A stretch of DNA of 64,000 bases from Pedobacter foliorum (lineage in GTDB: Bacteria > Bacteroidota > Bacteroidia > Sphingobacteriales > Sphingobacteriaceae): assembly GCF_013266735.1 (NCBI RefSeq), contig NZ_JABSNU010000001.1, positions 124,001-188,000 of the forward strand, read 5' to 3'. Position numbers and translations under genes: made by a program. Shown piece by piece: positions 20,314-42,345 of the stretch. Below the pieces are notes generated by a model that saw nothing but the letters and a program-made list of their open reading frames with translations, was not told the origin of the DNA and searched no databases. Each line of letters starts with the position of its first letter. Within the stretch, counting starts at the first letter, position 1.

Positions 20314-20344
20314 AGTAAAAGTTCCCTCTTTTTTAAGCGCGGGA

Positions 20345-20773: not shown

Positions 20774-20783
20774 TTATCAAAAG

Positions 20784-21965
20784 TTAGATACTATTTGTTT
20801 CGTCAAAATAAACAATCATATCAAAATTATTAGCTATTGATAAATTTTTATTTACTGGAAAACTTAAACCACCTATCATTCTCATTTCTTTTTGTTGCGT
20901 TAAAAAAGAACTTAATTGATTGTCAGTAATAGCTTCATGGACATCTAAAATAAAGTTTTTGTATTTGCATTGCTTAAAATAGTACTCGTAACCATTTTTA
21001 GAACTTACTTCGGGGTAGTATAAAGGTTGCCAATCAGAAATAGGTTTGTTTTTAGTAGCAGGTATTCTTACACTAACATTTCCTTTGTTTATATCAGTGG
21101 CAATTACATAATATTTATCACTGTAATCTCTATTAAGATATTCTCCCATTGGAGGTTTATTGTATAGGGAAGTTTTAGCAACGTGCCCATTGTGTGCCCA
21201 AATGATTAGTTTTTTATCATTTGTACTTTCTTTTATTGCAATTAAGTTTTCTGCCAGGTATTTATCTCTAAAACCTATTTTGCTATTAATACCAATAAAA
21301 TTGTGGTAATTGTCTATTAACTGAATCAGCATTTTGCTGTTCAAATTTTTCGGTAAACGAGTACAAACCATTCTGAAATTATCAAGGTTCTCTTTTTCGA
21401 TTTTATCAAATTGCGCGTTTTTAATTTTTAATAGAACTTCTCTATCAGGCTGATTAATATCCTTGTTTGAATCCAATATTTTATCAATCGCACCACTGAA
21501 TTCCCTTATTTCTAAGCCATACACATGTACTTTATTTTGCTCGCTCTTTGTTTTGTTGTATGCTCTTAGCCACAGAAATAGGGGTTTGTAATTAGGACTC
21601 ATAGCAGTACTATCAATCGAGCCATTTATATAATTGTCTATTATCTCTAGTGCTGTGTAATCTGCTTCAAAAGCAATGGTTTTGTAATTAAGATTAGAAA
21701 CCAAATAGCGAATTAGCCTATCCTTATAGGCATATACTTCTTTGGTTCCATGGGTAACTTCCCCAAGCGCTATTATTTCCTTTGTACTAAGGACTTTGGA
21801 TAGGAAATCAATATCAGTAAAGCTGGTATCAGGTTTTAGTGTGTTAATAGGCTTAATAACGTTGTTGAGTTTGTTAATTATTTCTATTTCTTGAGCAAAT
21901 AATTTAGAAGAAAGGAGGATGAGCAAAAGAAAGGGAACTAGTTTTTTACACTTCGGCTGTTTCAT
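20784..21965 (-). CDS. Erythromycin esterase family protein
   Basis: A 393-residue exported protein. I start at the ATG at 21965, which gives the signal peptide MKQPKCKKLVPFLLLILLSS; five extra residues are possible upstream. The body has the family marks ALGEVTHGTKEVY, AFEADY and IIWAHNGHVA, whose His and Glu residues form the active site of EreA-like and succinoglycan-biosynthesis-type enzymes. Most chromosomal members in Bacteroidota are not shown to give macrolide resistance, so the substrate is unknown. It heads a three-gene minus-strand set. Confidence 0.82.
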   Translation of the reverse strand: MKQPKCKKLVPFLLLILLSSKLFAQEIEIINKLNNVIKPINTLKPDTSFTDIDFLSKVLSTKEIIALGEVTHGTKEVYAYKDRLIRYLVSNLNYKTIAFEADYTALEIIDNYINGSIDSTAMSPNYKPLFLWLRAYNKTKSEQNKVHVYGLEIREFSGAIDKILDSNKDINQPDREVLLKIKNAQFDKIEKENLDNFRMVCTRLPKNLNSKMLIQLIDNYHNFIGINSKIGFRDKYLAENLIAIKESTNDKKLIIWAHNGHVAKTSLYNKPPMGEYLNRDYSDKYYVIATDINKGNVSVRIPATKNKPISDWQPLYYPEVSSKNGYEYYFKQCKYKNFILDVHEAITDNQLSSFLTQQKEMRMIGGLSFPVNKNLSIANNFDMIVYFDETNSI

Positions 21966-22068
21966 AGCTAAATATAACAATCTAATGGTTGGATGCTTTT
22001 ACTTTAACAGTCTTTAACAGGTTATCTGCATTGCCTTGCTAAAGGCAATGGATACATGTTTTATGGTT

Positions 22069-22160
22069 AATGCTGAGATTGTCAAATGATTTGGCATTGC
22101 AAGTATTCCTGAGAACATATTGCTGGATGAGAAACAGGAACATAGTTGCGATCAATATTT
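22069..22160 (+). pseudogene. Remnant of a TlpA/thioredoxin-like gene 3' region
   Basis: This stretch aligns with 37908-38000, part of the intact thioredoxin-like gene at 36924-38069, with most bases identical (shared runs include AAGTATTCCTG/GAACATATTGCTGGATGA and GATCAATATTT). The copy has a TGA where the intact gene has CGA (Arg) and drifts out of similarity on both sides. It is a decayed fragment, evidence of an older duplication or recombination involving the 34-38 kb segment. Confidence 0.7.
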
Positions 22161-22268
22161 ATGTTTTGTAAGGTTTTAATGCTCAATTATCATAGCTTTA
22201 AGTAACCAAATAATATTCTTATGATAATTAAATTAACTCACTCTCAGCGGTTAAAAATAATGCATGGT

Positions 22269-23595: not shown

Positions 23596-24488
23596 ATGAA
23601 AGCTCTCAACTACTTTTTATTCATACTCTTATCTTCTTTTACTAGTGCATATGCTCAAAATACGTTAACGGGCAAAGTAATAAATGAAAGAACAGAGGAG
23701 GCTGTACCATTTGCTACAGTGACATTCCTTAATACAAAAAAGGTACAAATGCTGATGCTAATGGGGTCTTTAAACTTAAAAGGATCGAAAAAGGCGCGAA
23801 AGATACTTTACTATTTGTGGCAGTAGGGTATCTGCCCCTAAAGTTGGCAGTAAGTGACTTGATTGCATCATCGGAAGTTTACCTGCAAGAAGATATAAAA
23901 ACGCTAAAGGAAGTAAACATCAGCGACAAACGCAAGGAACTGATGGTTAGGAGTTACAATATCGGTACTCATTTGTATTTCAGAAATAACGGTGGGCAAC
24001 TTGCAAAAAGATTTGAAATGCCAGCCACGCATCAATATTTGAAAGAAATCTGGATTAATAGGAATTTGACTAATTTTCCTTTCTCAACTGAAACCAGATT
24101 TAGAATTAACATTTACAATGAAAATCCTGAGACTAAAGGTCCCGGAGAAAGAATCTGCCTGGATACCATTGAGGTTCATGATTTGAATAACAGTGAGATC
24201 AGAGTCGACGTTAGTAAGTACAATATTTCCATTACCAGCAATCCATTTTTTGTGGGGATTGAAACGATCCCAATTCCTTATAATGAACGGTATTATATCT
24301 CTAGATATACCATTGGAGCCGGTAGTATTGAAGAGCGTAAATCTCCTGAATATTACGAAATAATGTACCAGCCATTTGTCAGCATCGGGCGTCCAAAGGA
24401 TAACGAAGGCTGGTCATTACCACTTGTTCCGGGCTCAAAATGGATAAAAGTCAATATTGTTCCGGCGATAAAAATTGTAGTCAATTAA
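23596..24488 (+). pseudogene. Secreted carboxypeptidase-regulatory-like protein, single-base frameshift
   Basis: The first frame (23596-23826) encodes a signal peptide (cleavage near AYAQ) and the start of a carboxypeptidase-regulatory-like domain, NTLTGKVINERTEEAVPFATVTFLNTKK. From the six-A run at 23736-23741 the natural continuation (GTNADANGVFKLKR, then VAVGYLPLKL) is in another frame that runs to 24488. One extra A there (seven instead of six) would restore a protein of about 297 residues. It may be a real mutation, phase-variable slippage or a read error. The C-terminal part resembles the next gene product. Confidence 0.75.
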
Positions 24489-24490
24489 TT

Positions 24491-25162
24491 ATGAGATACC
24501 TACTATTTGTCAGCATCATGTTTAGCACTCTTGCTACGGTGGCTCAGGAAAACCTGATTCTAAATGGAATTCACAAGGATAGCGTTTGTTTTTATATCGG
24601 CTTTCAAAAGGTAAATGAACAGTTTAACTATTTACAGGCCGCACAGAAATTCAGTACTGAAAAAGCTGGCAGCATATTGCAGCAGGTAGAGCTGGGTAGA
24701 TTGATTATACCTGCTAACGTTGTGGAATCTCGAATAGTTGAACCGACTAATACAACCTTCCTGCTACATATATACGACGTTGACAGCTTGACCGGCGCTC
24801 CCGGTGCTTCATTAATTAGCGAGCCGCTGGAGGTTAAAAACCGGTCGAACCCAATTGTTAAGATTGATCTTAGGAAGTACAAAATCAGGATTCCGGGTAA
24901 AACTTTTTTCGTCAGCATTGAATGGCTAACAAACTCAATAAATCAGCGATTTATGCAATTGTCTGGAAATATTGAACTTGTTCCAGGAAAGCGTTTCAGG
25001 AAAACCGCCTTTATTTACCAACCTTTTGTTGGCATGGTAAAGAACAAGAAGACTACTTCTGATGCATGGGTTATGACGTCCGAGCGGCAATGGAAACTGT
25101 ACACACACAATATGCCTTACATGACTGATATAGCCATATCTGCACATCTCGTAAACAATTAA
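24491..25162 (+). CDS. Hypothetical secreted protein, paralogue of the preceding gene
   Basis: A 223-residue protein. I start at the ATG at 24491, 2 bases after the previous stop, giving the signal peptide MRYLLFVSIMFSTLATVAQE. The body shares a pattern with the C-terminal part of 23596-24488: FxLxIYxxxxxTxxPG, then VxIDLRKYKI-type and FFVSIEW-type strands and a YQPFVGM motif. The two are therefore tandem paralogues of a beta-rich secreted domain. Function unknown. Confidence 0.65.
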   Translation: MRYLLFVSIMFSTLATVAQENLILNGIHKDSVCFYIGFQKVNEQFNYLQAAQKFSTEKAGSILQQVELGRLIIPANVVESRIVEPTNTTFLLHIYDVDSLTGAPGASLISEPLEVKNRSNPIVKIDLRKYKIRIPGKTFFVSIEWLTNSINQRFMQLSGNIELVPGKRFRKTAFIYQPFVGMVKNKKTTSDAWVMTSERQWKLYTHNMPYMTDIAISAHLVNN

Positions 25163-25231: not shown

Positions 25232-25239
25232 TATTTTTG
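25232..25239 (+). promoter_or_regulatory. -7 promoter box for the MNT/HepT operon
   Basis: TATTTTTG matches the Bacteroidota TAnnTTTG -7 consensus and lies 18 bases before the ATG of the antitoxin gene at 25258, implying a very short leader. A matching -33 element is not clear. Confidence 0.45.
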
Positions 25240-25257
25240 TATAGGACGTTTAGACAT

Positions 25258-25557
25258 ATGAATCTGCTGGAAAAATATCAAAATGACATACGAGAGCTTT
25301 GCATTAAGTATAATGTGAATCAATTATATGCATTTGGCTCTGTTCTTACAGATGGATTTAAGGATTCTAGCGATATTGATCTGATAGTCAATTTTGATAA
25401 AATTAAGATTGAGGATTATGCTAACAATTATTACAATCTGAAATTTTCTCTCGAAGATATTTTTAAACGGCCAGTCGATTTATTGGAGTATAAGGCTTTG
25501 AAAAATCCTTATTTTAACAGAGAAATAGAGAAACAGCGACAATTAGTATATGGATGA
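25258..25557 (+). CDS. MNT-type nucleotidyltransferase antitoxin (MntA-like)
   Basis: A 99-residue minimal nucleotidyltransferase with the GS-X10-D-x-D motif complete: G27, S28, D39 and D41 (FGSVLTDGFKDSSDIDLIV). I start at the ATG at 25258 (MNLLEKYQND); seven extra residues are possible. In MntA/HepT systems this enzyme AMPylates the HepT toxin to neutralise it. The last 8 bases overlap the HepT gene, so the pair is translated together. Confidence 0.85.
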   Translation: MNLLEKYQNDIRELCIKYNVNQLYAFGSVLTDGFKDSSDIDLIVNFDKIKIEDYANNYYNLKFSLEDIFKRPVDLLEYKALKNPYFNREIEKQRQLVYG

Positions 25558-25888
25558 TAAAGTATATGTTTGGCTTTATGATATGCTAAACGCAATTGTG
25601 GAAATTGAAAGTTTTTTTGAAGAAGACACTGTAGAGTTTGAAATATACGAACGAGATCTGAAAACAAAAAGAGCTGTGGAGCGTAATATTGAAATCATTG
25701 GTGAAGCTATGAATCGTATACTTCAAATTGAACCGAATATATCATTAAGTAATACTAGGCAAATGGTTGATACGCGGAATAGAATTATACATGGTTATGA
25801 TACAGTCTCAGATGAAATCATATGGTCTATTGTTTTTCAGCATCTTCCTCTTCTTAAGTCTGAAATTGAAGGTTTATTAGGAGAATAA
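25550..25888 (+). CDS. HepT-like ribonuclease toxin (DUF86)
   Basis: A 112-residue helical HEPN protein. The toxin motif RX4HXY is intact (R76, H81, Y83 in RNRIIHGYD). The RAVERNIEIIGEAMN helix near residue 41 is typical of DUF86. It overlaps the MNT gene by 8 bases in the antitoxin-first order common for this family. Expected activity is RNA cleavage, blocked by AMP added to the motif tyrosine. Both genes look functional. Confidence 0.85.
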   Translation: MDDKVYVWLYDMLNAIVEIESFFEEDTVEFEIYERDLKTKRAVERNIEIIGEAMNRILQIEPNISLSNTRQMVDTRNRIIHGYDTVSDEIIWSIVFQHLPLLKSEIEGLLGE

Positions 25889-25963
25889 AAGACCTTCTTT
25901 TAATTATCGACTTTGCATACATTTTTAGGGCAGCCCAGTTTTAGGGGAGAAACACAGGTATAA

Positions 25964-26051
25964 TTAATTCTTAGCTTTAAAGATGCTGAATCGGTATTGA
26001 TAATTTAGCATAACATATCGCCTAAGTATAAGCTGTTCTTTAGTATTCAGC
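25964..26051 (-). repeat. Truncated 3' end of an outer-membrane barrel gene (direct repeat copy A)
   Basis: Bases 25965-26045 (81 bp) are identical to 34078-34158, and one mismatch extends the match to 26051. On the minus strand this is the last 26-28 codons of the barrel gene at 34077-36791, with its stop kept (TAA instead of TAG). Beyond 26051 no similarity remains. The rest of the 25889-26198 interval holds no gene that I can see. Confidence 0.9.
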
Positions 26052-26198
26052 ATCAATTATAGCTTTTCGGCAACGATTGCGTAGATTTTTATAGTCTGAT
26101 TAAGTAAAAAGGGCATTAATCTTCTTAATATCGTATTGGAATTGAAGGAGATTGTAAGTTATTACACCCTCAAGCAACTTGACCAAATATGAAGCCGA

Positions 26199-27386
26199 AT
26201 GAGATTAAATGAGTTTTTATTGCCTATTCTTTTTGTTTTAGTAGTCCCTGTTGCTACGTTTGGACAAAAAACCGCTAAAACTGACCCTGTTAAATTAAAA
26301 CTGATTACAGATGAATTGTCGCATCCAACGGCAATGGCTGTTACTAAAAAAGAGCCAAACTTACTTTTTGTTTGTGAGCAGGAAGGACGCATACGTATCA
26401 TTGAAAATGGTAAACTAATTCAAACTCCCTTTCTTGATATCTCCGGCGAAGTTCTAAAAAAGGAAGGTTACGAGGAACGCGGACTACTTGGTCTGACGTT
26501 TCACCCGGATTATGCAACCAATGGCAAATTCTATATATACTGTAGCGTTTCTTCGGCAAAAGGCAAAGGAACAGATCACCAGTCTGAGGTAAGGGAGTAT
26601 ACTGTATCTAAGACTAACGGCAGGATTGCCGATGAGACTAAAATGCGTCAAGTGCTAATTGCTGACCAACCGCAATCAAATCATAACGGTGGTTGTTTGC
26701 AGTTTGGAGCTGATGGTTTTCTTTATATCTCTATCGGAGATGGTGGTGGACAGAATGATATGCATGGGGAATATGGGAACGCACAGAACCTAACAAATCT
26801 CCTTGGTAAAATAAGTAGAATTGATGTAAATAAGGAACCTTACGCAATTCCTGCGGATAATCCATTTGTAAATGCTGCTGACGCGCGACCTGAGATTTAT
26901 GCCTATGGGTTTAGAAATCCATGGCGTTTTAGTTTTGATAGTAAAACCAATCAGCTTTTTGCCGGAGATGTGGGGCAGGATAAGTATGAGGAAGTAGACT
27001 TGGTTACAAAAGGCGGCAATTATGGCTGGCGCACTTTTGAAGGATTACATTCCTACAGGCCAAATGATCCTCAGCCTAAAGATCACATTCTTCCGATTAT
27101 GGAGTACCCGCATACAGAAGGCATAAGTATTACCGGAGGCTATGTTTATCATGGTAAGGCAATTCCATCCCTAAATGGCAAATATGTTTTTGCCGATTTC
27201 ATGGGGCCGGTGTGGAACCTTTCCAAAGGTTCTGATAACAAATGGGTACGAACAAAAATGTCAATTTCAAGGGATGCGGGATACTGGCATATCTATAGTT
27301 TTGGAGAAGACCTAAAAGGTGATATCTATATGCTTACAGTTTTGCTGGAAAGCGATAAGGGTGCCCTATATAAATTGGTTCCATAA
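26199..27386 (+). CDS. PQQ-dependent sugar dehydrogenase (soluble aldose/sorbosone type)
   Basis: A 395-residue exported protein with a signal peptide (LLPILFVLVVPVATFGQ) and a six-bladed propeller of the glucose/sorbosone dehydrogenase family. Hallmarks are EERGLLGLTFHPDY, QSNHNGGCLQFGADGFLYISIGDGG, GFRNPWRFSFD and AGDVGQDKYEEVDLV. These enzymes oxidise aldoses using PQQ and pass electrons to an acceptor. It is the first gene of a sugar locus that continues with GH2, LacI, propeller and GH39 genes. Whether this strain makes or takes up PQQ cannot be told from the window. Confidence 0.88.
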   Translation: MRLNEFLLPILFVLVVPVATFGQKTAKTDPVKLKLITDELSHPTAMAVTKKEPNLLFVCEQEGRIRIIENGKLIQTPFLDISGEVLKKEGYEERGLLGLTFHPDYATNGKFYIYCSVSSAKGKGTDHQSEVREYTVSKTNGRIADETKMRQVLIADQPQSNHNGGCLQFGADGFLYISIGDGGGQNDMHGEYGNAQNLTNLLGKISRIDVNKEPYAIPADNPFVNAADARPEIYAYGFRNPWRFSFDSKTNQLFAGDVGQDKYEEVDLVTKGGNYGWRTFEGLHSYRPNDPQPKDHILPIMEYPHTEGISITGGYVYHGKAIPSLNGKYVFADFMGPVWNLSKGSDNKWVRTKMSISRDAGYWHIYSFGEDLKGDIYMLTVLLESDKGALYKLVP

Positions 27387-27403
27387 TCTTTGAATTTAAC
27401 ATC

Positions 27404-30163
27404 ATGAAACGAATTATTCTATCTGCTTTATGTCTTATAGGTGTGTTTGCTGTCAAGGCTTCTGCACAACAAAGCAAACTTATCTACTTATCAGGGATTG
27501 ATAAAGATCATACTGTTAACTGGGAATTCTTTTGTACCAAAGGAATGAATAGTGGCAAATGGACCGAAATAGCTGTTCCATCTCAATGGGAACTGCAAGG
27601 ATTTGGCGGTTATAATTATGGCCATGATAAGAAAAAATCCGATGAGCAGGGATTGTACCGTCATCATTTTAAAGCAGATAAATCATGGTCAGATAAGGAG
27701 ATTCAGCTCGTTTTTGAAGGGGTGATGACTGATGCCGAAGTCAAGATTAATGGTCAACTGGCTGGCGCTATACATCAGGGTAGCTTTTATCGTTTCAATT
27801 ATCCTGTAAGTAATTTATTGAAATTTGATGCCGATAATGTACTGGAAGTAACGGTAAGTAAGCAGAGCGCTGATGCTACTGTAAATAACGCTGAGCGTGA
27901 AGGCGATTTCTGGGCATTTGGGGGTATTTTTCGCCCTGTTTACCTGAAGGTAATGCCCAAGACATTTATAGACCGTGTTGCAATTGATGCCAGGGCTGAT
28001 GGCAATTTTGGAATAGACGTGTTTACCGCTAAGGTCCAATCGGGCGATAAAGTTTCGGTTCGCTTGTCAACATTAAAAGGGGCTGCATTTGGTTCCCCAT
28101 TAAGTTATAACATAAGTAAACCTGCTGATTCTATAAGATTGACTGGCAAGTTTAGTAAACCTGTACTTTGGAATCCTGAATTTCCAAATCTTTACATGGC
28201 GCAAGTGAGCATAATGAGGAAGGGACGCATTGTACATGTGTTAAACCAGCGCTTTGGATTCAGAACCGTAGAGGTGAGGAAGTCAGATGGGATTTATGTA
28301 AATGGGACAAAGATTCTAATAAAGGGAGTAAATCGCCACAGCTTTTGGCCGGAAAGTGGCAGAACGTTAAGTAGAAATGTACATCTTCAGGATATTATGC
28401 TCATGAAAGAAATGAACATGAACGCGGTACGTATGTCTCACTACCCACCTGACGCTGAATTCTTAGATCTTTGTGATTCTATAGGCTTATTTGTAGTTGA
28501 TGAACTAACCGGTTGGCAACAACATTATGGTACTCCAGTTGGGCGAAAGCTGGTTAAAGAACTGATTGTTCGAGATGTAAACCATCCAAGTATTCTATTT
28601 TGGGCCAATGGAAATGAAGGAGGATTTAACTTTGACCTAGATAATGACTATGCACTTTATGACCCTCAAAAACGGGTAGTGATTCACCCCTGGAGTAATT
28701 TTAACAATATAGATACGAAACACTATCCGGAATATAGTTACATCGAAAATGCTGCAAAAAAGCAGGATATCCTGCTACATACAGAAATGATCCACGGCCT
28801 TTATGACGGAGGGCATGGGGCAAGTCTGGATGACAATTGGAAGCTCATTCGTCAAAATCCAAGGCATGCTGGCGGTTTTCTGTGGGCTTTAACAGATGAA
28901 GGGGTTGTTAGAAGAGATAAAAAGGACAGTATAGATACCGATGGAAACCATGGGGCAGATGGTATTGTTGGGCCTCACCGAGAAAAAGAGGGAAGTTTCT
29001 ATACTATAAAGGAGGTTTGGAGTCCTGTACAGATAAAAAAACCTGATTTCAGTTCGAGAAACGTGGTTGTCGAGCTAGAAAACACCTATTTATATACCAA
29101 TCTTTCTGAGTGCAACTTCAGCTGGCAATTGGTTAAATTCCCCTTGGCAGGGGAGAAGAAGAATGGATTTATTCCAATTTCTTCCGGTAAGTTATCAGCG
29201 GAACTGGCACCTGGAAAAAAAGGTAGTTTCAAGCTAGGTCTTACTCCCAATTGGAAAGATGCAGATGCATTGCGTTTTATTGCTACTAACAAGGAGGGAA
29301 GAGAAATTTATACCTGGGCCTGGCCAATTAAAACTACGGCTCAGATTGCACAAAAGAATTTGAGTAGGCTTGATAAAGAAAAAAGCAGCATTACGGATTC
29401 GGAAAAGGAGAATGTCTATGTTGTCACGCAAAATGGTATAATTTACACTTTTGATACGCAAACTGGTTATTTAAAGACTGTTGAAAATAGCAAAGGGGTG
29501 GTTTCTTTTGGCAATGGTCCAAAGCTTGCCGGTGTAAATCAGACACTACAAAGTTTTAAGCATATGAAAACTGCAGATGGAGGAATCATAGTGGAAAGCA
29601 CTTATACAGGTGAATCAACTTTGAATGCCAAATGGCTATTTGTTTTGGGGAAACCGGTATGTCTGGAGTATGACTATACACAAACGGGAACAGCTAATTT
29701 TTATGGGATTACATTTGATATCGATGAATCTAAAATAACAGGGATGCGCTGGTTGGGCGATGGGCCGTACAGAACCTGGAAAAACAGGTTAAAAGGGGTG
29801 AACACAAGCGTTTGGGAAAAGAGTTACAATAATACGATAACTGGTGAGACTTTTGTTTACCCAGAATTTAAAGGCTATCATGCCAATTTATATTGGGCAG
29901 AAATAGCAGCTAGTAACGCTTCATTTAGGGTATATACCGATAAATCAGACCTGTTTTTGCAAATGTTGAAACCCGATAAGCAACGTACCTCATTCATTGC
30001 TCATGTAAATCCACCTTTTCCGGAAGGAAACTTAGGTTTTTTAAATGCAATCGCTCCTATTGGTAATAAATTTACGAAGGCAGACCCCATGGGGCCTCAG
30101 AGTCAAAAAAACATAGCGTTAAATTCAAAGGTTATAGGAAAGCTTTGGTTTGATTTCTATTAG
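27404..30163 (+). CDS. Glycoside hydrolase family 2 protein (beta-galactosidase-like)
   Basis: A 919-residue secreted enzyme with a signal peptide (cleavage near KASAQ). The order is a jelly-roll sugar-binding domain (about 30-190), an immunoglobulin-like domain (about 200-290) and a catalytic barrel (about 295-560) with KGVNRHSFWPESGR, acid/base E405 in GNEGG and nucleophile E461 in LHTEMIHG. About 300 C-terminal residues form a further beta-rich region. The substrate is probably a beta-galactoside or beta-glucuronide side group; the sequence alone does not decide. It begins 17 bases after the dehydrogenase gene. Confidence 0.88.
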   Translation: MKRIILSALCLIGVFAVKASAQQSKLIYLSGIDKDHTVNWEFFCTKGMNSGKWTEIAVPSQWELQGFGGYNYGHDKKKSDEQGLYRHHFKADKSWSDKEIQLVFEGVMTDAEVKINGQLAGAIHQGSFYRFNYPVSNLLKFDADNVLEVTVSKQSADATVNNAEREGDFWAFGGIFRPVYLKVMPKTFIDRVAIDARADGNFGIDVFTAKVQSGDKVSVRLSTLKGAAFGSPLSYNISKPADSIRLTGKFSKPVLWNPEFPNLYMAQVSIMRKGRIVHVLNQRFGFRTVEVRKSDGIYVNGTKILIKGVNRHSFWPESGRTLSRNVHLQDIMLMKEMNMNAVRMSHYPPDAEFLDLCDSIGLFVVDELTGWQQHYGTPVGRKLVKELIVRDVNHPSILFWANGNEGGFNFDLDNDYALYDPQKRVVIHPWSNFNNIDTKHYPEYSYIENAAKKQDILLHTEMIHGLYDGGHGASLDDNWKLIRQNPRHAGGFLWALTDEGVVRRDKKDSIDTDGNHGADGIVGPHREKEGSFYTIKEVWSPVQIKKPDFSSRNVVVELENTYLYTNLSECNFSWQLVKFPLAGEKKNGFIPISSGKLSAELAPGKKGSFKLGLTPNWKDADALRFIATNKEGREIYTWAWPIKTTAQIAQKNLSRLDKEKSSITDSEKENVYVVTQNGIIYTFDTQTGYLKTVENSKGVVSFGNGPKLAGVNQTLQSFKHMKTADGGIIVESTYTGESTLNAKWLFVLGKPVCLEYDYTQTGTANFYGITFDIDESKITGMRWLGDGPYRTWKNRLKGVNTSVWEKSYNNTITGETFVYPEFKGYHANLYWAEIAASNASFRVYTDKSDLFLQMLKPDKQRTSFIAHVNPPFPEGNLGFLNAIAPIGNKFTKADPMGPQSQKNIALNSKVIGKLWFDFY

Positions 30164-30213
30164 TACTATAGTAGTTTTTTAGTACATTCATCATGTTTTA
30201 GCCAGCGTGTTTT

Positions 30214-31242
30214 ATGTATAAACCTATAACTTTAAAAGATATTGCATTGGCACTCGACCTTTCACCTTCTACGGTCTCCAGAGCGTTACGCGATTCTTAT
30301 GAAATTAGTAAAAAGACCAAAAAAATAGTGAATGATTACGCTGCGGGTGTAAATTATCAATCCAATCCAATGGCTGCGGGACTGAGGAGCAAAAAAAGTA
30401 AGTCCATTGGCATAGTTGTTCCTGATTTAGCGAATAGTTTCTTTTCACAGGCAATATCAGGAATTGAATCAATAGCAGACAAAGAGGGGTATCATACAAT
30501 AATCTCGCAAACTAAGGATTCCTATCATAAGGAAATTGAAGTGGTTAACCATATGGCCAACCGCTCTGTTGATGGCCTGATTATTACCATGTCATCTAAC
30601 ACAACAGAATATACACATCTTCAGCAAATGCATAAAAGTGGACTGCCTATTGTTTTCTTTGACAGAATTGTAGATGAGATAGATACTTATAAAGTGATCT
30701 GCAATAATTTTGAAAGTTCCTATAAGGCTATTTTGCAATTGATAGAAAATGGCAAAAAAGATATCGCTTTTTTAGCTACTGCACCACAACTGTCAATTAG
30801 TAAAGAGCGGATGAATGGATATAGAGCTGCATTAATGGATCAACATATTTTATGGCGGGATGAATTGATCAAGTTCTGTCCTTCGGGAGGGAGTGACCAT
30901 AGCGAAACTGAATTTGCAATGAAACAGTTGATGGCGCTAGATCAGCGTCCGGATGCAGTATTTGTAGCTGGAGACAGGCTGAGCATGTCATGCCTTAGGG
31001 CGCTAAAAAAGTTACAGATTGATAGTGATGAATTGTCAATTATTGGCTTTTCAAATGTAGATCTGATAGATTTACTTGAAACGCCAATTTCTCATATCAG
31101 GCAAAGGGCTTTTGAGATGGGGCAAATATCTATGACGATGCTTTTAAAGATAATTGAGGCTAAATATCCAATTACTGATTTTGATACCAAAACAATTGAT
31201 GCTGATATATTCTGGGCTGAGCATTTAGGCCTTGATAGTTAG
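30214..31242 (+). CDS. LacI family transcriptional regulator
   Basis: A 342-residue regulator with an N-terminal LacI helix-turn-helix (ITLKDIALALDLSPSTVSRALRDS) and hinge (NPMAAGLRSKKSKSIGIVVPDL), followed by a periplasmic-binding-protein-like sugar sensor. It sits in the middle of the locus, 50 bases after the GH2 gene, and its end overlaps the frame of the next gene region. It probably controls this operon in response to a released sugar. The best operator candidate nearby is the imperfect GCAACGATTGC at 26070-26080. Confidence 0.88.
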   Translation: MYKPITLKDIALALDLSPSTVSRALRDSYEISKKTKKIVNDYAAGVNYQSNPMAAGLRSKKSKSIGIVVPDLANSFFSQAISGIESIADKEGYHTIISQTKDSYHKEIEVVNHMANRSVDGLIITMSSNTTEYTHLQQMHKSGLPIVFFDRIVDEIDTYKVICNNFESSYKAILQLIENGKKDIAFLATAPQLSISKERMNGYRAALMDQHILWRDELIKFCPSGGSDHSETEFAMKQLMALDQRPDAVFVAGDRLSMSCLRALKKLQIDSDELSIIGFSNVDLIDLLETPISHIRQRAFEMGQISMTMLLKIIEAKYPITDFDTKTIDADIFWAEHLGLDS

Positions 31243-31270
31243 CTTTACCCACTTTATAACACGCTTTATT

Positions 31271-32302
31271 ATGAAATTCAAACCATCAAAATGTTCTAAA
31301 ATGTACTACGGGATTCAGTTCAGTTTAATGCTAATCTTGGTGGTTAGCATAGGTAAAACGACGATAGCTCAAACTAGTGATTCTAAAGCCGGTAATCATT
31401 TAGCTCCAAAAAAATTACCAGGAAAAGGACTTGGACAATTCGATTTCTTTTATGCCGGTGAAGCCAAAGATCGCAACATGTATATCGTGCGCGATGGTAA
31501 AATAACCTGGTCATATATAGATACAGTGGGCAGGGGAGAAATTAGCGATGCCATTTTAATGAAGAATGGCAATGTATTGTTTGCTCATCAATATGGCATT
31601 ACTTTAATCAACGCTAATAAAAAAGTACTCTGGAAATACGATACACCTGAGGGATTTGAAACGCATACCGCGCAACTTATCGGTAATGATCATGTTGTAT
31701 TTGTTCAGAATGGTAATCCAGCTAAAGTTTTGGTAATGAACATTAACAATAATAAGATTGAAAAAGAATTTAAACTACCCTTTAAAAGTGGTACTCACGG
31801 TCAAATCAGACACGCAAGGTTAACAAAAGAAGGAGCCATTCTTGTTGCTCATATGGATTTGGGTAAAGTCTGTGAGTATGATAGCAATGGCAATGAGCTT
31901 TTATCGCTGGAGGTTCCAAGTGTCTGGTCGGCCGTACAGTTAAAAAATGGCAATATACTGGTCACCAGCAATAACCGGTTCGTCAAGGAGATTTCACGTA
32001 ATGGAAAGGTTATTTGGGAGTATTTTTTAGATGAAATCCCTGATTATAAAGTATCGTCACCACAGCTTGCAACACGACTACCAAATGGCAATACACTTAT
32101 AAATAACTGGTTTAACCAGTGGGATAGTAAGTTGGATCCGGACAATGCTCCAGTTCAGGCTATAGAAGTTACTCCAACTAAAAAAATCGTGTGGGCACTC
32201 CGATCATGGACTTATCCGGTAAATCTGGGCCCATCAACTACCATTCAGTTACTTGATAACACCACTTCATTTGAGAACGTTCATTTTGGCAACATAAAAT
32301 AA
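31271..32302 (+). CDS. Secreted PQQ-like beta-propeller protein
   Basis: A 343-residue protein started at the ATG at 31271 to give the signal peptide (LMLILVVSIGKTTIAQ); an upstream ATG at 31232 overlaps the LacI gene. The mature part has repeated W-type strands such as ITWSYIDTVG, KVLWKYDTP, KVIWEYFLD and LPNGNTLINNW, as in arylsulfotransferase/PQQ-binding-like propellers. A catalytic role is not evident. It is placed between LacI and GH39 genes, so it may bind or oxidise a sugar from the same substrate. Confidence 0.72.
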   Translation: MKFKPSKCSKMYYGIQFSLMLILVVSIGKTTIAQTSDSKAGNHLAPKKLPGKGLGQFDFFYAGEAKDRNMYIVRDGKITWSYIDTVGRGEISDAILMKNGNVLFAHQYGITLINANKKVLWKYDTPEGFETHTAQLIGNDHVVFVQNGNPAKVLVMNINNNKIEKEFKLPFKSGTHGQIRHARLTKEGAILVAHMDLGKVCEYDSNGNELLSLEVPSVWSAVQLKNGNILVTSNNRFVKEISRNGKVIWEYFLDEIPDYKVSSPQLATRLPNGNTLINNWFNQWDSKLDPDNAPVQAIEVTPTKKIVWALRSWTYPVNLGPSTTIQLLDNTTSFENVHFGNIK

Positions 32303-32333
32303 AATTAGACTCAAATAAGCAACCATCGTATCA

Positions 32334-34013
32334 ATGAAAAAGATTCAATTTTTGGTAATTATATTTGGCCTAAATAGTCTAGTATATGCTCAGACTAACA
32401 AAAACAACTCGGTAAATATAGATGTTAACTTTTCAGAATCAATAACACCAATGAAACCATTATGGGCTTGGTTTGGATATGATGAGCCTAATTATACCTA
32501 TATGAGGGACGGCAAGAAACTACTTACCGAAATTGCAGCGGCAAGTCCGGTACCAGTATTTGTCAGAGCACATAGCTTATTGGTAACCGGAGATGGCGTT
32601 GCGGCTTTAAAATGGGGGTCAACCAATGCTTACACTGAAGACGCCAATGGAAATCCAGTTTATAACTGGTCCATTATTGACAGTATTTTCGATACTTATA
32701 TCAAAAGAGGGATGAAACCTCTGGCTCAAATTGGCTTTATGCCCGAGGCGCTGTCCAGTAAACCTGTGCCTTACAAGCATAGCTGGAAACCTGGCGACAA
32801 GTACAGTGATATTTTCACTGGCTGGGCATATCCTCCTAAGGACTACAATAAGTGGGCAGAGCTTATTTATCAATGGGTAAAGCATAGTGTTGAACGTTAT
32901 GGAAAGGAGGAAGTAGAAAGCTGGTACTGGGAACTTTGGAACGAACCTGATTCACAATATTGGAAAGGAACGCAGCAGGAGTTTTTTAAACTATATGATT
33001 ATTCTGCTGAGGCAGTTAAGCGGGCTTTGCCGACGGCAAAAATAGGAGGGACTGACATCACTGGAGGTGCTATGAAATTTCAAGATGCTTTTATAAAACA
33101 TTGTCTGTTCGAAACCAATTATGCAACAGGAAAAATAGGTGCACCGCTTGATCTTCTTCTATTTCATGCCAAGGGATCACCTAAATTAGAAAACGGGAGG
33201 GTTGTCATGGGGATCCGCAATCAGCTTCGCAACATTAATGACAATTTAAAGGTTATTGCGGGCTATCCGCAGTTAAAAGACCTTCCAGTAGTCATCGGCG
33301 AGTCGGACCCTGAAGGTTGTGCTGCTTGCGGTATGGCTACGGATCCTCAAAATGCTTATCGTAATGGAACCATGTATTCCAGTTACACTGCTGCATCATT
33401 TGCCCGAAAATATGAACTTGCCCATTTATTGAAATCTAACCTGATCGGTGCGGTTACCTGGGCATTTGAATTTGAAAATCAACCCTGGTTCTATGGTTTC
33501 AGGGATTTGGCAACCAATGGTGTAGATAAACCTGTATTGAATGTGTTTAGGATGTATGGATTTATGGGAGGAAATTTAGTTAAGGTTGATGCCAACAGAA
33601 TGTATACTCTTGATAGTGTTTTAGCCTCAGGTATTCGTGGTGCTCAAACAGATATTGGTGCATTGGCATCAAGAGATAATAAATCTGCCGCAGTTATGGT
33701 GTGGAATTATCACGATGCTGATGAAAAGGGCAACGTTGAAAAAGTTAACATTCAGCTTAAGGGATTGCCTTCCCAAACCGTTCAGCTAAAGCATTACCGC
33801 ATTGATGATGCGCATAGCAATTCGTATGAAGTGTGGAAAAAAATGGGTTCGCCTGTAAGTCCAACAGCTTTACAAATCAAGCAGCTTGAAAAAGCTGGTC
33901 AACTAACCTTGCTCGAAAAGCCTTCCATACTTAAAATTAAAAATGGAGCTGCGAATCTAGAAATACTTTTACCCAGACAGGGTGTTTCTTTACTGTACCT
34001 TGCTTTTAAGTAG
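32334..34013 (+). CDS. GH39-type glycosidase (beta-xylosidase-like)
   Basis: A 559-residue secreted protein (signal peptide ending near VYAQ). The barrel carries acid/base E204 in WELWNEPDS and the probable nucleophile E323 in VIGESDPEG, followed by GH39-like strands (AVTWAFEFENQPWFYG) and a C-terminal beta domain. GH39 includes beta-xylosidases and alpha-iduronidases; the match to xylosidases is better by motif, but specificity is uncertain. It is the last gene of the sugar operon, 31 bases after the propeller gene. Confidence 0.8.
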   Translation: MKKIQFLVIIFGLNSLVYAQTNKNNSVNIDVNFSESITPMKPLWAWFGYDEPNYTYMRDGKKLLTEIAAASPVPVFVRAHSLLVTGDGVAALKWGSTNAYTEDANGNPVYNWSIIDSIFDTYIKRGMKPLAQIGFMPEALSSKPVPYKHSWKPGDKYSDIFTGWAYPPKDYNKWAELIYQWVKHSVERYGKEEVESWYWELWNEPDSQYWKGTQQEFFKLYDYSAEAVKRALPTAKIGGTDITGGAMKFQDAFIKHCLFETNYATGKIGAPLDLLLFHAKGSPKLENGRVVMGIRNQLRNINDNLKVIAGYPQLKDLPVVIGESDPEGCAACGMATDPQNAYRNGTMYSSYTAASFARKYELAHLLKSNLIGAVTWAFEFENQPWFYGFRDLATNGVDKPVLNVFRMYGFMGGNLVKVDANRMYTLDSVLASGIRGAQTDIGALASRDNKSAAVMVWNYHDADEKGNVEKVNIQLKGLPSQTVQLKHYRIDDAHSNSYEVWKKMGSPVSPTALQIKQLEKAGQLTLLEKPSILKIKNGAANLEILLPRQGVSLLYLAFK

Positions 34014-34076
34014 TATAGCTGCTGGGGCTTTTTGTGCACGCATGTCAGTCATACAACGAGTGTTTTAACACTCCAT

Positions 34077-36791
34077 CTAATTCTTAGCTTTAAAGATGCT
34101 GAATCGGTATTGATAATTTAGCATAACATATCGCCTAAGTATAAGCTGTTCTTTAGTAATCAGCGCGTTCAAATTCCCATACCTGTTTACCGAAATATTT
34201 TGGTTCAGCAAGTCATAAACAGATAGCTTTAACTGGCCACGGTCTTTTTTATGTGTAAGCAAAGATAAGGCTAGGTTTACAATATGTGAGCTTTTTGGAA
34301 AACCCTGAGCAATTTGAGGGTTATACATGAATCTATACCTTGCATCAATTACAATTCGCTTAGGAAGCCTGAACGACCCGGAACTGCCCAGAATATGAGA
34401 ATAATTTAACACTTTATTGAAGTTCTGATTCATATAATCGACCAATGATCGTTGGTACATGTAGCTGAAATTGACCATCGCAACCGATTTGTAATTGACA
34501 CTAAAATCCTGGGTTATCGAAAACGTACGGAAACGCTGTTTAGCCTCGTCGTTGTTTAGGAAAACGATTCGGCTACTGTAACCACCAGATAGTGCTGTTC
34601 GCGTACCTATTTGCCAGTGTTGCGATTTCTTAAACTGCTTGCCGATTGAGCCGCCACCGTCTATCCATTTCCCACCGTCTTTATTTACGTAGGTGGCAGT
34701 AGTAAAACCTTTATCATCAATTACTGCTTTTTGGACAAAGTTATTGTCAGAAAACATTGAACTGGCATATCCGCTGATACTCAAAAGCCGTGATGTAATG
34801 TACTTATAGTAGTTGGCCCTCAAATTCCGTTGCCTGCTAGGCATTAGCTGCGGGTTTCCTACAAAAGTATATTGTGTAGAGAGTTCGCGAGTAAGCGGTT
34901 GCATATTGTAGATGGATGGAAAATCAACCCATTCGCCATAGGTCATAGAAAACCCACTGTAATCTACAGAAAATGATGGGAAGAAGACTGTGGCACGTTG
35001 TCTGATGTCGTTAACTGAAGTGTTGAACTTGTTATTTACATCCTGAATTTCCAAATCGAGCGCCACTCTGAGCCTTAGCTGATTAGTGATCTGGTAATTG
35101 AGTAGGGGCTTAAAATTTTGAAAGAACCCTGTGCGCTCAAAATCGTTGCTTTGTTCAGGACGAAACTGATCGTAATTTCCTGATGTACTGTTCATATCAA
35201 AGGTATAAAGCGGCTCGGCCCAATAGTAATACCTGCTGTTGGAGAATAGCTCGGCTGTCAATTTTTTACTTAGCGGAAGGTTGTACAGAATAGATAAGCC
35301 AGTCCCCCTGGTTTTACTGCTATTTGTGATGTAACGATCGAATAGCGACGATTCGAGCTCCGAAGAAAAAGAGCTAAGCTGGTTGTAGTTGTAGGTTTGG
35401 GTATTGCCAACGTTTAAATTTAAAAAGTTGTTAACCGTAAGAGATCTTCCTTTTTTAAATTTCTTGTAATAGGTAAAGTCGTGCGAAAAGGCATCTCTGC
35501 TGGTGGAGCTTCTGTTTCGTCCATCAGTTTCGCTTAGCGCCGGAATTTGAGAGTTGGATTGTTTAATAAAACTGGAATACCTGTTCCGTTCGGGAGAAAA
35601 GGTAAGTGCCGGACGGTACCTAATGCTCTCGGTAGTGTCTGGTTTCCATTCTACCAAGCCACCTAATGAATGGGTTGTAGCATTCCGTTTGGCCTGATCG
35701 GTTAGGAGTGAGGTGATTACAGTGTTGGTCAGAGACTGTTCATTTAAGGTTTTCGTTTCATTGTTGTTAATTGTATTCCCATAAAAATAGGCTAGGTTAA
35801 GTTTTAGCTTTTTGCCATAGTCGTTGTTGATGTTTATCCCGCCTGATTTTACATTGACAAAACCACCCGATTGTTGCCCTCCGAAGTTGCCATAATCTAC
35901 CTGGTTGGTGCCTGATCGGTTGAAGCCGCCCATGCTTTGCAGATCGTTCTGACTAAAGCCAGTACTGTTTAAATTATTGGCAGCTCCCATCAAACTAAAC
36001 TGTAGCGTATCCCTAAAACTGCTTATAATTCCGCTTGTTTCGTATCGTTCTCTTGAACCGATTCCGCCCATAAACTTACCTATGGTACTCTTTTTAACGG
36101 CGCTTTTTAATTTCAGGTTGATTACGTTTTGCAAATTGATCTCGTTTATCTTACGATCCGGGTCGTTTTCCCTATCGAGATATACCTGGATTTTGTCGAT
36201 CATCTCAGCGTCGAGGTTTCTGAGGGCAATGAGCTGGTTGGTGCCGAAGAACTCCTTACCATCAATTAGTATCCTGCTGGTGCCTTTTCCGTTAACCAAT
36301 ACTTCGCCGTTCTCATTTACCTGAACACCGGGTAACAGCCGTAGCAGTTCTTCAACCAAAGCATTTGGTCGGGTTTTAAAGGCTTCTGCATTGAACTCAA
36401 TGGTATCCTTTTTCATTACTACCGGCGATCGTTCTCCTGTGATCACAATTTCGCCAAGGCTTCTGCTGGTTAATTTAAGGAGTCCAAGGTCGAGAAGGCC
36501 TGGCTTTAAATCAATCATTCGCTTGTGAGATTCGTACCCAACATAGGATACGATAAGTTTTAAGGACCTTGTCGTCGGCAGTCGAGAGAGTTGAAATGTC
36601 CCGTCATCTTTTGTTACCGTATATGACACTAGTGAGGTATCCCGGGCATTTACGACCGCTACAGTAGAAAGGCTAAGCGGTGTTTTGGTGGCAGAGTCGA
36701 TAATTGTTCCCTTTATGGAAGCATTGTTTTGGGCATAGGATTTTAACGTTGTGCAAAAACACAGGAGCAACAGCAATAAGACATTTTTCAT
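34077..36791 (-). CDS. TonB-linked outer-membrane beta-barrel protein
   Basis: A 904-residue protein with a signal peptide (cleavage near SYAQN), a carboxypeptidase-regulatory-like domain (about residues 24-105), a TonB plug (LGEIVITGERSPVVMKKDTIEF to about residue 230, with NGKGTSRILIDGKEFFGT) and a long barrel of the OMP_b-brl_3 type ending in an aromatic strand (YQYRFSIFKAKN). No SusD partner is adjacent, so it is probably an import or peptide-type outer-membrane protein without a lipoprotein lid. Its last 27 codons recur exactly at 25965-26045. It is divergent from the thioredoxin-like gene. Confidence 0.85.
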   Translation of the reverse strand: MKNVLLLLLLCFCTTLKSYAQNNASIKGTIIDSATKTPLSLSTVAVVNARDTSLVSYTVTKDDGTFQLSRLPTTRSLKLIVSYVGYESHKRMIDLKPGLLDLGLLKLTSRSLGEIVITGERSPVVMKKDTIEFNAEAFKTRPNALVEELLRLLPGVQVNENGEVLVNGKGTSRILIDGKEFFGTNQLIALRNLDAEMIDKIQVYLDRENDPDRKINEINLQNVINLKLKSAVKKSTIGKFMGGIGSRERYETSGIISSFRDTLQFSLMGAANNLNSTGFSQNDLQSMGGFNRSGTNQVDYGNFGGQQSGGFVNVKSGGININNDYGKKLKLNLAYFYGNTINNNETKTLNEQSLTNTVITSLLTDQAKRNATTHSLGGLVEWKPDTTESIRYRPALTFSPERNRYSSFIKQSNSQIPALSETDGRNRSSTSRDAFSHDFTYYKKFKKGRSLTVNNFLNLNVGNTQTYNYNQLSSFSSELESSLFDRYITNSSKTRGTGLSILYNLPLSKKLTAELFSNSRYYYWAEPLYTFDMNSTSGNYDQFRPEQSNDFERTGFFQNFKPLLNYQITNQLRLRVALDLEIQDVNNKFNTSVNDIRQRATVFFPSFSVDYSGFSMTYGEWVDFPSIYNMQPLTRELSTQYTFVGNPQLMPSRQRNLRANYYKYITSRLLSISGYASSMFSDNNFVQKAVIDDKGFTTATYVNKDGGKWIDGGGSIGKQFKKSQHWQIGTRTALSGGYSSRIVFLNNDEAKQRFRTFSITQDFSVNYKSVAMVNFSYMYQRSLVDYMNQNFNKVLNYSHILGSSGSFRLPKRIVIDARYRFMYNPQIAQGFPKSSHIVNLALSLLTHKKDRGQLKLSVYDLLNQNISVNRYGNLNALITKEQLILRRYVMLNYQYRFSIFKAKN
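34078..34164 (-). repeat. Direct repeat copy B (3' end of the barrel gene)
   Basis: Identical over 81 bp to 25965-26045, with 86 of 87 bases matching over the full interval, and in the same orientation at an offset of 8,113 bp. This copy is the genuine 3' end of the intact barrel gene. The two copies bracket the 26.2-34.0 kb sugar locus. Confidence 0.9.
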
Positions 36792-36854
36792 GAGAGCGCT
36801 AAAAAGATATTTGGTTAGTCGGTTTAAAAATTAACTCAATATAGGTTTTTTACA

Positions 36855-36923: not shown

Positions 36924-38069
36924 ATGAAGACATCTATATTAACGCTTATTTGTTTCGCTTTTTCAATAGTTTGCCATGGCAAACAGTTAAATGATTCTGT
37001 ATTGGTAAATGCAACATTTAACGATTCTTCTTTTCTGGATAAGAAGCCAGAACTTGTTGTTCAAAAAAATGGCGCGAACAATATAGTCCGAATTGATCCG
37101 CTGGATAAAACTGGTAGAATACTAAAGTTTAGGTTTAAAAAAGACGACTATCTGGTTGGTGGATTGATTTTTAATGATGGTAAAAGTAGGAGTTTACCTT
37201 TCTTTATATCACCTCAAAGTACTGAGATTAGCTTTGATGTAACTTTTGAAAAGGGGAGTTCTCTTGGTCGTATTGATAACTTAAAAGGTTCTAAGCTACA
37301 TGATGACTATTTGCGTTTTAATAAAGAAGGGCAAAACATACATGACTCAATTAGAATTGTACAGTCGAAAAAGTATAAGGATTTCGAGAAGAATTTCAAC
37401 CGTTTAGACATTACTAATGAACGTATGACCTTATATGATGAGGCTAATTTTAGATTCTATAAGAATGCACTAAAAAACAGCATTTATTATGCCCCAATGG
37501 TGTATTGGATATTGGTGCAATCGATAGACAATTGGAGTGTAAGTCAGTTTAAAGAACTACTTTCTGTTACCCCACCTGCAAACGCCAAAGAATATCACGA
37601 TAAATTAGTCGAATCCTTAAAGATTAAAGTGGAGGCAATGAAGAGTGAGGATTACAAAAACATCTTACTTAAGAACTCAGAACTGGCACAAGCGATAAAG
37701 AAAAGTAATAAGAAGTTTGTTTATATCTCTCTATGGGCTTCGTGGTGCGTACCCTGCAGGGCTCATAGTAAGGAGCTTTTAAAAGCAGACCTTAGAAATA
37801 TTGAAGTGATAGTTTTATCATTGGATAAAGACAATAACGCAATGAAAAAAGCTATAGAGGCAGATAAGATCGGTATATGGCAGCATATACAGTTGAAAGA
37901 GGGCTTTGATGCTGAGATTGTTAAACGATTTGGCATTACAAGTATTCCTGGAAACATATTGCTGGATGAAAACAGAAACGTGGTAGGGATCAATATTTCT
38001 GATAATGCGCTTACCTCCATTATAATTAAGAATACTGTGATATATAATAAGGCATCCAAATCGTTCTGA
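36924..38069 (+). CDS. TlpA-like thioredoxin-fold protein
   Basis: A 381-residue exported protein with a signal peptide (TLICFAFSIVCHG). The first 230 residues resemble the DUF4369-type N-terminal domain common before Bacteroidota TlpA folds. The C-terminal 130 residues are a thioredoxin domain with C275-VP-C278 in LWASWCVPCRAHSKELL and a cis-Pro in ITSIPGNILLDENRNVV. It probably acts in periplasmic thiol exchange. Part of this C-terminal region exists as a decayed copy at 22069-22160. Confidence 0.85.
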   Translation: MKTSILTLICFAFSIVCHGKQLNDSVLVNATFNDSSFLDKKPELVVQKNGANNIVRIDPLDKTGRILKFRFKKDDYLVGGLIFNDGKSRSLPFFISPQSTEISFDVTFEKGSSLGRIDNLKGSKLHDDYLRFNKEGQNIHDSIRIVQSKKYKDFEKNFNRLDITNERMTLYDEANFRFYKNALKNSIYYAPMVYWILVQSIDNWSVSQFKELLSVTPPANAKEYHDKLVESLKIKVEAMKSEDYKNILLKNSELAQAIKKSNKKFVYISLWASWCVPCRAHSKELLKADLRNIEVIVLSLDKDNNAMKKAIEADKIGIWQHIQLKEGFDAEIVKRFGITSIPGNILLDENRNVVGINISDNALTSIIIKNTVIYNKASKSF

Positions 38070-38862: not shown

Positions 38863-39585
38863 ATGGTAGATGTGAATATGTACAAAGCTCAAATTGAGGA
38901 ACAAGGTTTTACCACCATTACTAATGTGTTTGCAGATGAACAGGTTGAAGAAATCCTTCAACTCATTAATCAATCTGATACTTCCAGAAAAACCTTTAGA
39001 AAGTCTGCTGATTTGTTTGCAATTAGACAGTTTTTAAAGGAAGTGCCTGCAGTAGCTCACCTTATCTTTAATGATGAATTTAAGACACTTATTAAAAGTG
39101 TTTTTGGTTCTAGATATTTTGTGATAAAGTCGATTTATTTCGATAAGCCGGAACAATCAAACTGGTTCGTTTCCTATCATCAGGATCTGACTATATCGGT
39201 TGATAAAAAGGTGGAACTGGATGATTATACTAAGTGGACGGTTAAACAAGATCAATTTTCGGTTCAGCCTCCTTTGGACATTCTAAAACAGATATATACT
39301 GTTCGCATTCATCTTGACGATACAGATGAAAATAATGGGGCATTAAGAATTGTTCCTGGTTCTCATTTAAAAGATATTTATAGGCCTGAAGATATTGATT
39401 GGAGCAAAGAGACCGAACATGTTTGTGGTGTTCCCAAGGGTGGCGTAATGATTATGAAACCTTTGTTGCTGCATAGCTCTAGTCGTACTACAAATAACAA
39501 TAAGCGTAGGGTAATCCATATTGAATTTTGCAGTCAAGAGCTGCATCCGGAATTACAATGGGTGGAACGTATAGGTTTATATTGA
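38863..39585 (+). CDS. Phytanoyl-CoA dioxygenase (PhyH) family protein
   Basis: A 240-residue cytoplasmic Fe(II)/2-oxoglutarate oxygenase. Iron ligands are H106 and D108 in SYHQDLT and H204 in LLLHSSSRT, with R208 positioned to hold 2-oxoglutarate. The NNGALRIVPGSHLKD turn is typical of the PhyH family. The substrate cannot be told; bacterial members hydroxylate a wide range of small molecules. No pathway neighbours give a clue. Confidence 0.85.
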   Translation: MVDVNMYKAQIEEQGFTTITNVFADEQVEEILQLINQSDTSRKTFRKSADLFAIRQFLKEVPAVAHLIFNDEFKTLIKSVFGSRYFVIKSIYFDKPEQSNWFVSYHQDLTISVDKKVELDDYTKWTVKQDQFSVQPPLDILKQIYTVRIHLDDTDENNGALRIVPGSHLKDIYRPEDIDWSKETEHVCGVPKGGVMIMKPLLLHSSSRTTNNNKRRVIHIEFCSQELHPELQWVERIGLY

Positions 39586-39687
39586 CACAATTTGCCCTGA
39601 CTTTTGTCATAGTTGCCCCTCATTACTAAAGCTATATTTTAAGAACTTAGTATCAATGGAACTATTCCATTATTAAAACTTAGAATC

Positions 39688-40095
39688 ATGACAGTTAAAA
39701 ACCCATTTGTCTGGACAGAAATCAGTGTAAACGACCTGGCCAGAGCTAAGAAATTCTATGAGTCGGTATTGCAGATTCAGCTATCTGAATTGGCGGCTCC
39801 AGATACAATGAAAGTGGATAAAGATGACCCTTGTTACTTTGAAATGCTTGCATTTCCTGGAGATATGATGGGGCCGGGCAGTAGTGGTACATTAGTTAAA
39901 TCAAGTATGAGTAAGCCAGGTGCTGGAGGTATAATGGTTTATTTTCATGCTGAAGATTGTGCTGTTGAACTCTCCAGAGTGGCAGCCGCAGGAGGCAAAG
40001 TAATTGCAGAAAAGATGTCTCTTGGAGAATATGGTTTCTGTGGTGTTGCCGAAGATACTGAAGGCAACCATATTGGTTTTCATTCTATGAAATAG
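39688..40095 (+). CDS. VOC family protein (glyoxalase/bleomycin-resistance type)
   Basis: A 135-residue cytoplasmic protein with two beta-alpha-beta units: FVWTEISVNDLARAKKFYESVL at the start and MVYFHAEDCAVELSRVAAAGGKVI followed by GFCGVAEDTEGNHIGFHS at the end. The family is broad. No metal-ligand set that would prove lyase activity is evident. It stands alone and is followed by a hairpin terminator. Confidence 0.82.
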   Translation: MTVKNPFVWTEISVNDLARAKKFYESVLQIQLSELAAPDTMKVDKDDPCYFEMLAFPGDMMGPGSSGTLVKSSMSKPGAGGIMVYFHAEDCAVELSRVAAAGGKVIAEKMSLGEYGFCGVAEDTEGNHIGFHSMK

Positions 40096-40100
40096 TATTT

Positions 40101-40138
40101 AAGTGCTGTCCAATTGCGGGTGGCACTTATTTCTTTTT
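40101..40138 (+). terminator. Terminator after the VOC gene
   Basis: AAGTGC (40101-40106) pairs with GCACTT (40123-40128), and a run ATTTCTTTTT follows at 40129-40138. It lies 6 bases after the stop at 40095. Confidence 0.5.
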
Positions 40139-40245
40139 ACTCTTCAATGAGAAAGCTTGGCTTTGCTCCGGGATAGGGTTTGTTTTTGTTCCAGTTTTTC
40201 TAAGGTTGGATACCATTTTAAGGGGGTAATTTCTATATTAGTACT

Positions 40246-42154: not shown

Positions 42155-42345
42155 GATAAAAGTATCGATCATTTCTCTTAGTTCCAAATCTTTACAAATT
42201 ATATGTTTTATGTGTCCTTTGGGTGATTAAAGATTATCACATATTGTGATTCAATATCCTCAGTAGAGGCTTTTAATTGTGTTTGCCCATTAATTTAAGT
42301 AACTTTATTTGCAGTTAACTATCTGCGCAATAAATATTTATCCGT

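Follow-up and report, generated by a model that had tools for sequence, protein, structure and literature searches.

Genomic islands that are integrated in the 3′-end of a gene leave this gene end duplicated at both borders. In homology-facilitated illegitimate recombination, as outlined in PMC3240628, incoming linear DNA is joined through one homologous and one illegitimate side. Sequential displacement has been described for the T6SS effector/immunity modules of Vibrio cholerae, where, according to the account in PMC5361080, a new module is placed 3′ of a conserved gene and the old 3′-end is shifted behind it. Tandem duplications made by transformation, in which direct repeats border the segment after unequal exchange, were reported for Streptococcus pneumoniae (PMC3784515).

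The window analysed here is the whole 64,000-bp stretch at positions 124,001 to 188,000 of contig NZ_JABSNU010000001.1 of Pedobacter foliorum. In this window, a block of sugar genes is bracketed by two direct copies of the 3′-end of one gene, of which the right copy belongs to the intact gene. Unlike the islands integrated in gene 3′-ends, the block contains no recombinase among the enclosed genes, and the native flank lies beside the intact gene. We tentatively interpret the arrangement, with a probability of roughly 0.38, as the scar of a one-ended, homology-anchored recombination, which set the locus beside the gene and displaced the old 3′-end of the latter. If this reading is right, the locus resembles homology-facilitated illegitimate recombination as presented in PMC3240628 in combining a homologous and an illegitimate side, and differs from it in being deduced from one final sequence without the parental joints. 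It is similar to the modules outlined in PMC5361080 in that the new DNA lies 3′ of a conserved gene and the old 3′-end behind it, whereas the displaced part is an 88-bp gene fragment and the cargo a sugar locus instead of an immunity gene array. The direct repeats bordering the segment recall the pneumococcal duplications as described in PMC3784515, from which the present case differs by a single remaining unit of the segment. Neither a mobile element nor any new mechanism has to be assumed, and the case adds to the rearrangements of a known type, in a chromosomal region that varies among close relatives. The features are listed below, where G104 denotes Pedobacter sp. B4-66 (NZ_JAFVME010000003.1) and G002 Pedobacter sp. 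V48 (NZ_AWRU01000013.1), both belonging to the genus of the window, and G139 is a further genome.

25237..25888, plus strand: MntA/HepT-type (MNT-HEPN) toxin-antitoxin pair (25237-25557 and 25550-25888), above the Pfam cut-off
25964..26051, minus strand: left copy, the last 88 bp (stop TAA) of a CarboxypepD_reg gene, 86/88 identical to 34077-34164
26052..34053, no strand assigned: block between the copies, with recognisable homology to other Pedobacter from 26065
26065..26142, plus strand: non-coding stretch upstream of the GSDH gene, conserved in G139 and G002 (85-86% identity)
26199..27386, plus strand: GSDH family gene (PQQ-type glucose/sorbosone dehydrogenase), profile match
27404..30163, plus strand: GH2 family gene, profile match
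30214..31242, plus strand: LacI-family regulator gene, profile match
31232..32302, plus strand: beta-propeller protein gene (Mala_s_1-like / PQQ_2), profile match
32334..34013, plus strand: GH39 family gene, profile match
34057..34076, no strand assigned: native 3′ flank of the gene, common to G104 and absent beside the left copy
34077..34164, minus strand: right copy, 3′-end (stop TAG) of the intact gene 34077-36791
34077..36791, minus strand: intact 904-codon gene with an N-terminal CarboxypepD_reg domain (Pfam)

The exact 81-bp direct repeat reported in the preliminary description (25965-26045 = 34078-34158) was recovered with the same coordinates and lengths, and it is part of a longer homologous stretch of 88 bp (25964-26051 versus 34077-34164), in which 86 bases are identical. 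On the inner side, 26046 is T and 34159 is A, after which the match resumes up to 26051/34164, while at the other edge the last base of the stop codon differs, T at 25964 giving TAA in the left copy and C at 34077 giving TAG in the right one. The copies are in direct orientation and 8,113 bp apart, and recombination between them would remove 8,113 bp, as had been proposed. A chance repeat was rejected, because only about 3e-38 exact 81-mer pairs are expected in the window. All 62 exact direct 20-mer pairs of the window are explained by the 88-bp repeat, and no other exact direct repeat of at least 20 bp was found in it. A multi-copy repeat element was also rejected, as the 6.08-Mb genome (43 contigs) contains two copies, both on the same 872-kb contig, and only one of 58 other genomes gave a match, which represented a single gene end with 83% identity. 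Comparison of the first 448 kb of the contig with itself (exact word 20, length at least 50, identity at least 85%) revealed three pairs, of which the other two were only 86% and 85% alike, thus the 88-bp pair is unusual for this stretch of the chromosome; these settings are blind to pairs without a common 20-mer (the 87% pair of 22067-22163 was missed), while near-identical pairs should show. The 88-bp pair is probably of recent origin, and an assembly error behind it is unlikely since a long single contig contains both copies.

The left copy is a gene fragment, in agreement with its earlier description as a truncated gene end. It starts exactly at a working stop codon with unrelated sequence beyond, and the MntA/HepT pair is located directly to its left. 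At its inner side the join creates an ATG, preceded by TTG, which opens a 30-codon reading frame on the minus strand (25964-26056) ending in the final 28 residues of the gene with one change, Ile to Asn. This frame is probably accidental and nothing suggests its expression.

The intact gene had been regarded as preserved, which proved correct. Its label as a "barrel gene" was not supported by the profiles used, and no barrel match was found for its product by Pfam, NCBIfam, and PDB sequence searches: Pfam gave the N-terminal CarboxypepD_reg domain only, while NCBIfam and the PDB sequences gave nothing. Relatives of the protein at E ≤ 1e-100 occur in 79 of 145 Pedobacter genomes (own genome included), and most of the matches listed for it in Pedobacter genomes show 31-50% identity. 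G104 is colinear with the window, gaps included, on both sides (window 17007-22018 and 42230-58546), and its gene lies between the colinear flanks with 92.4% identity over 34054-36853; the 39 kb fetched contain a single 3′-end of it. Immediately after the stop codon, 17 of 20 bases are the same in G104 and beside the right copy (binomial 7.5e-8), whereas beside the left copy the number is 8 of 20 (0.13), which is the chance level; the agreement is short, since over 40 bases only 20 agree on the right and 13 on the left. As the 3′ flank of G104 is found beside the right copy and not the left, the right copy is the orthologue in its normal surroundings and the left one the fragment. The native flank (34057..34076) holds GAGTGTT-TT-AACACTC, a possible hairpin read by eye.

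The stretches fetched from V48, P. panaciterrae O48, and a further genome, G133, each contain a single 3′-end of the gene. These genes are 79–82% identical at the DNA level and stand among different neighbours, and that of G133 is split into two overlapping pieces. In G104, V48, P. panaciterrae, and G133, none of the repeats of at least 40 bp (seed 14) in the stretches fetched involves the 3′-end of the gene. Within the 88-bp stretch, the left copy can be told from the right one by two positions and from G104 by four, and the right copy from G104 by two; the C at 25975/34088 is common to both copies and absent from all four relatives. The left copy therefore derives from this lineage or a very near one. 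The identity of the gene to G104 varies between 88 and 99% per 100 bp along the gene without a step; thus no switch point between donor and resident sequence is visible, and a mosaic gene was rejected. The scar is real, was found here but not in the relatives examined, and lies in an exchange-prone region. In P. panaciterrae O48, a 189-bp tandem repeat of three copies (100, 96, and 66%) was observed about 10 bp past the gene end (L074:12725-13276).

The gene content given earlier for the block (LacI, PQQ, GH2, and GH39) was confirmed, the five genes being GSDH, GH2, LacI, a PQQ-like propeller, and GH39. The five genes match V48 in the same order (G002:C1:32678-40743, 83–86%), where the orthologous block sits in a larger polysaccharide-utilisation locus containing SusC, SusD, FecR, GH92, and GH28 genes, at a location without the CarboxypepD_reg gene. 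The sugar block therefore exists elsewhere without this gene. No SusC/SusD pair is present among the five genes enclosed here, and they do not make up a complete polysaccharide utilisation locus. G139 carries four of the five genes (82–83%), with GH39 not found in the 20 kb fetched, and the sequence of its upstream neighbour is nearly the same as in V48. In both genomes the homology to the window starts at 26065, which in V48 is 13 bases past the end of the GH92 gene. Since this upstream neighbour is missing here and the 88-bp fragment stands in its place, the block is an excerpt, including the 26065-26142 stretch, which might, as a guess, act as promoter or operator. In another genome, G093, a GH39 gene 84% identical to 32337-34014 was found and the other four genes were absent in the 20 kb fetched. 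The GSDH stretch was matched in 17 of 399 family genomes (own included), among which only G139 reached 80%; V48 is outside these 17, presumably not having been drawn among the 399 genomes. The base composition of the block overlaps that of the adjoining intact gene.

The MntA/HepT pair, whose NCBIfam matches are below the curated cut-offs, belongs to a stretch matched in 29 of 399 family genomes (own included). No CarboxypepD_reg gene is near its places in G153, G160, G118, and G097 (in the last the match ends at the contig end), and the gene surroundings fetched from G104, V48, P. panaciterrae, and G133 contain no such pair. In the 22018-42230 interval, the DNA common to the window and G104 is restricted to the CarboxypepD_reg gene and a glyoxalase-type gene (39583-40144), the latter lying to the right of the 904-codon gene here and to the left of it in G104, and the interval is largely replaced by other genes in G104, including SusC and SusD genes past the 3′-end of the 904-codon gene, one of which is only about 150 bp away. 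The V48 region C15:83000-118000, which has relatives of both flanks, does not contain the CarboxypepD_reg gene. These differences in gene content and order in G104 and V48 indicate that the 22018-42230 interval is exchange-prone. The glyoxalase-type gene adjoins a relative of window 16564-17008 in V48, and in G133 a distance of 7 kb separates it from relatives of other genes of the left flank.

According to the preferred reading, the gene would formerly have ended at the present left copy with TAA as its stop codon, and the MntA/HepT flank would have come next. The incoming DNA, from a close relative, would have comprised the 3′-end of this gene with the sequence that normally follows it, as well as the sugar genes; one side would have been anchored by homology within the gene, while the other end would have been joined illegitimately inside the resident gene, 88 bp short of its end. 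The gene would thereby have stayed intact with a 3′-end of incoming origin (right copy), next to which would lie the sugar locus and then the former 3′-end, moved aside (left copy). From this outcome we infer the donor, the one-ended mechanism, and the order in which the events took place. A single event would yield the direct orientation, the intact gene, the position of the left copy at the stop codon, and the arbitrary inner break, and displacement of the resident gene end with its flank in one step would explain the exact start of this copy at a functional stop codon. The G104-type flank of the right copy, the correspondence of the block to part of a larger locus of another Pedobacter, and the replacement of most of the 22018-42230 interval in G104, with a SusC/SusD pair close to the gene 3′-end, are in line with such an event, and the same logic was proposed for displaced gene ends in Vibrio (PMC5361080). 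The arrangement is consistent with homology on one side of the insert only. G002 and G139 match the window only from 26065. The donor and resident parents were not found, as no genome searched has the sugar locus (donor) or the MntA/HepT pair (resident) adjoining the gene. Several points weigh against this reading. The private C and the closer similarity of the left copy to the right one than to G104 fit a duplication within one lineage at least equally, the Ile to Asn change of the left copy is expected in a decaying copy, and the gene shows no donor/resident switch point. Moreover, because G104 has the right-hand flank at the same place, parsimony assigns this flank to the resident as well. 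In favour of the reading, the left–right difference (2/88) equals that between the right copy and G104, so that two different source strains are possible.

Nearly the same scar would be expected from a tandem duplication of which only a remnant is left, or from a templated insertion. In the former case, an 8,113-bp unit consisting of the sugar locus, the flank, and the 3′-end would have been doubled and the first unit mostly lost, so that its last 88 bp remained joined to the start of the second. The 26051/26052 joint does resemble the end point of a duplication, the right copy retains the native flank and the copies share the base missing in four relatives, and such duplications during transformation are documented in pneumococcus (PMC3784515), but at least three steps are needed, the later deletion must end at the stop codon by chance, and the window holds no other block repeat (at least 30 bp, seed 16) that would be a further trace of the first unit left of the fragment; we consider this course unlikely. 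Rather more doubtful is that about 88 bp were copied as filler from the gene end 8 kb off while the block was being joined to the MntA/HepT flank. This would be one local event that leaves the source gene intact and accounts equally for the shared base, yet only by coincidence would the copied stretch begin right at the stop codon, and no copying signature can be read without the parental joints. A Campbell-type insertion of a circle on which the gene 3′-end was present together with the sugar locus and right-hand flank, with the crossover within the 3′-end, would lead to an identical arrangement (left flank, 3′-end, locus, right-hand flank, gene); it is quite improbable, since the circle must already have carried the 26051/26052 joint, the homology is just 88 bp, and 25900-34200 has no near match in the plasmid collection. 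This search also led us to reject a plasmid origin, in a collection in which only near matches were sought and records very near the genome of the window may be left out. An integrative element using the gene 3′-end as attachment site would account for the direct repeat of this end at both borders, but it is extremely unlikely: insertion into the 3′-end should leave the old downstream sequence at the left copy and element DNA at the right, and the opposite is seen (17/20 on the intact gene side versus 8/20 on the left), none of the five enclosed genes (GSDH, GH2, LacI, propeller, GH39) is a recombinase, and no second 3′-end lies near the gene in the stretches of four relatives. The proposal that the locus had arrived or been rearranged through the gene 3′-end thus holds in part: the orthologous block without the gene in V48 speaks for it, while integration of the element type is not supported, in view of the flank and the lack of a recombinase. 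In the search for an empty site, the stretches fetched from four relatives showed a single 3′-end each, and the left-hand flank did not adjoin it in any of them. A tRNA attachment site was discarded, as no tRNA was found in the window, and so was a transposon, in the absence of inverted repeats of at least 30 bp (seed 16) in the window and of a transposase among the 20 proteins scanned with Pfam (19966-42101).

The case shows how a partial sugar-degradation locus with its conserved upstream stretch can become part of a chromosome without a visible mobile-element gene within its borders, while the adjacent gene is left whole. The repeat could also serve to remove the 8.1-kb block again. It is a long shot that the 3′ side of the gene serves as a recurrent, integrase-free anchor for the exchange of whole carbohydrate loci in Pedobacter, with an old gene end displaced at every exchange, of which the 88-bp fragment and the SusC/SusD genes of G104 would both be outcomes.

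Some further sequences were observed in and near the variable interval. At its left edge, 22067-22163 is a degenerate TlpA/thioredoxin-like fragment (with an in-frame stop and a frameshift), 87% identical to part of 36924-38069 on the same strand and present at two places in the genome. Two ORFs of 223 and 240 codons with a 49-base overlap (23817-25162) gave no Pfam or NCBIfam match. A gene encoding an SRA domain and an HNH nuclease (15412-16275), which might act on modified DNA, lies near the interval. The ORF at 18880-19962, for which Pfam gave no match, contains several diverged internal repeats with copies of 31–55 nt, a spacing of 108–267, and a YWKNGT-like motif.
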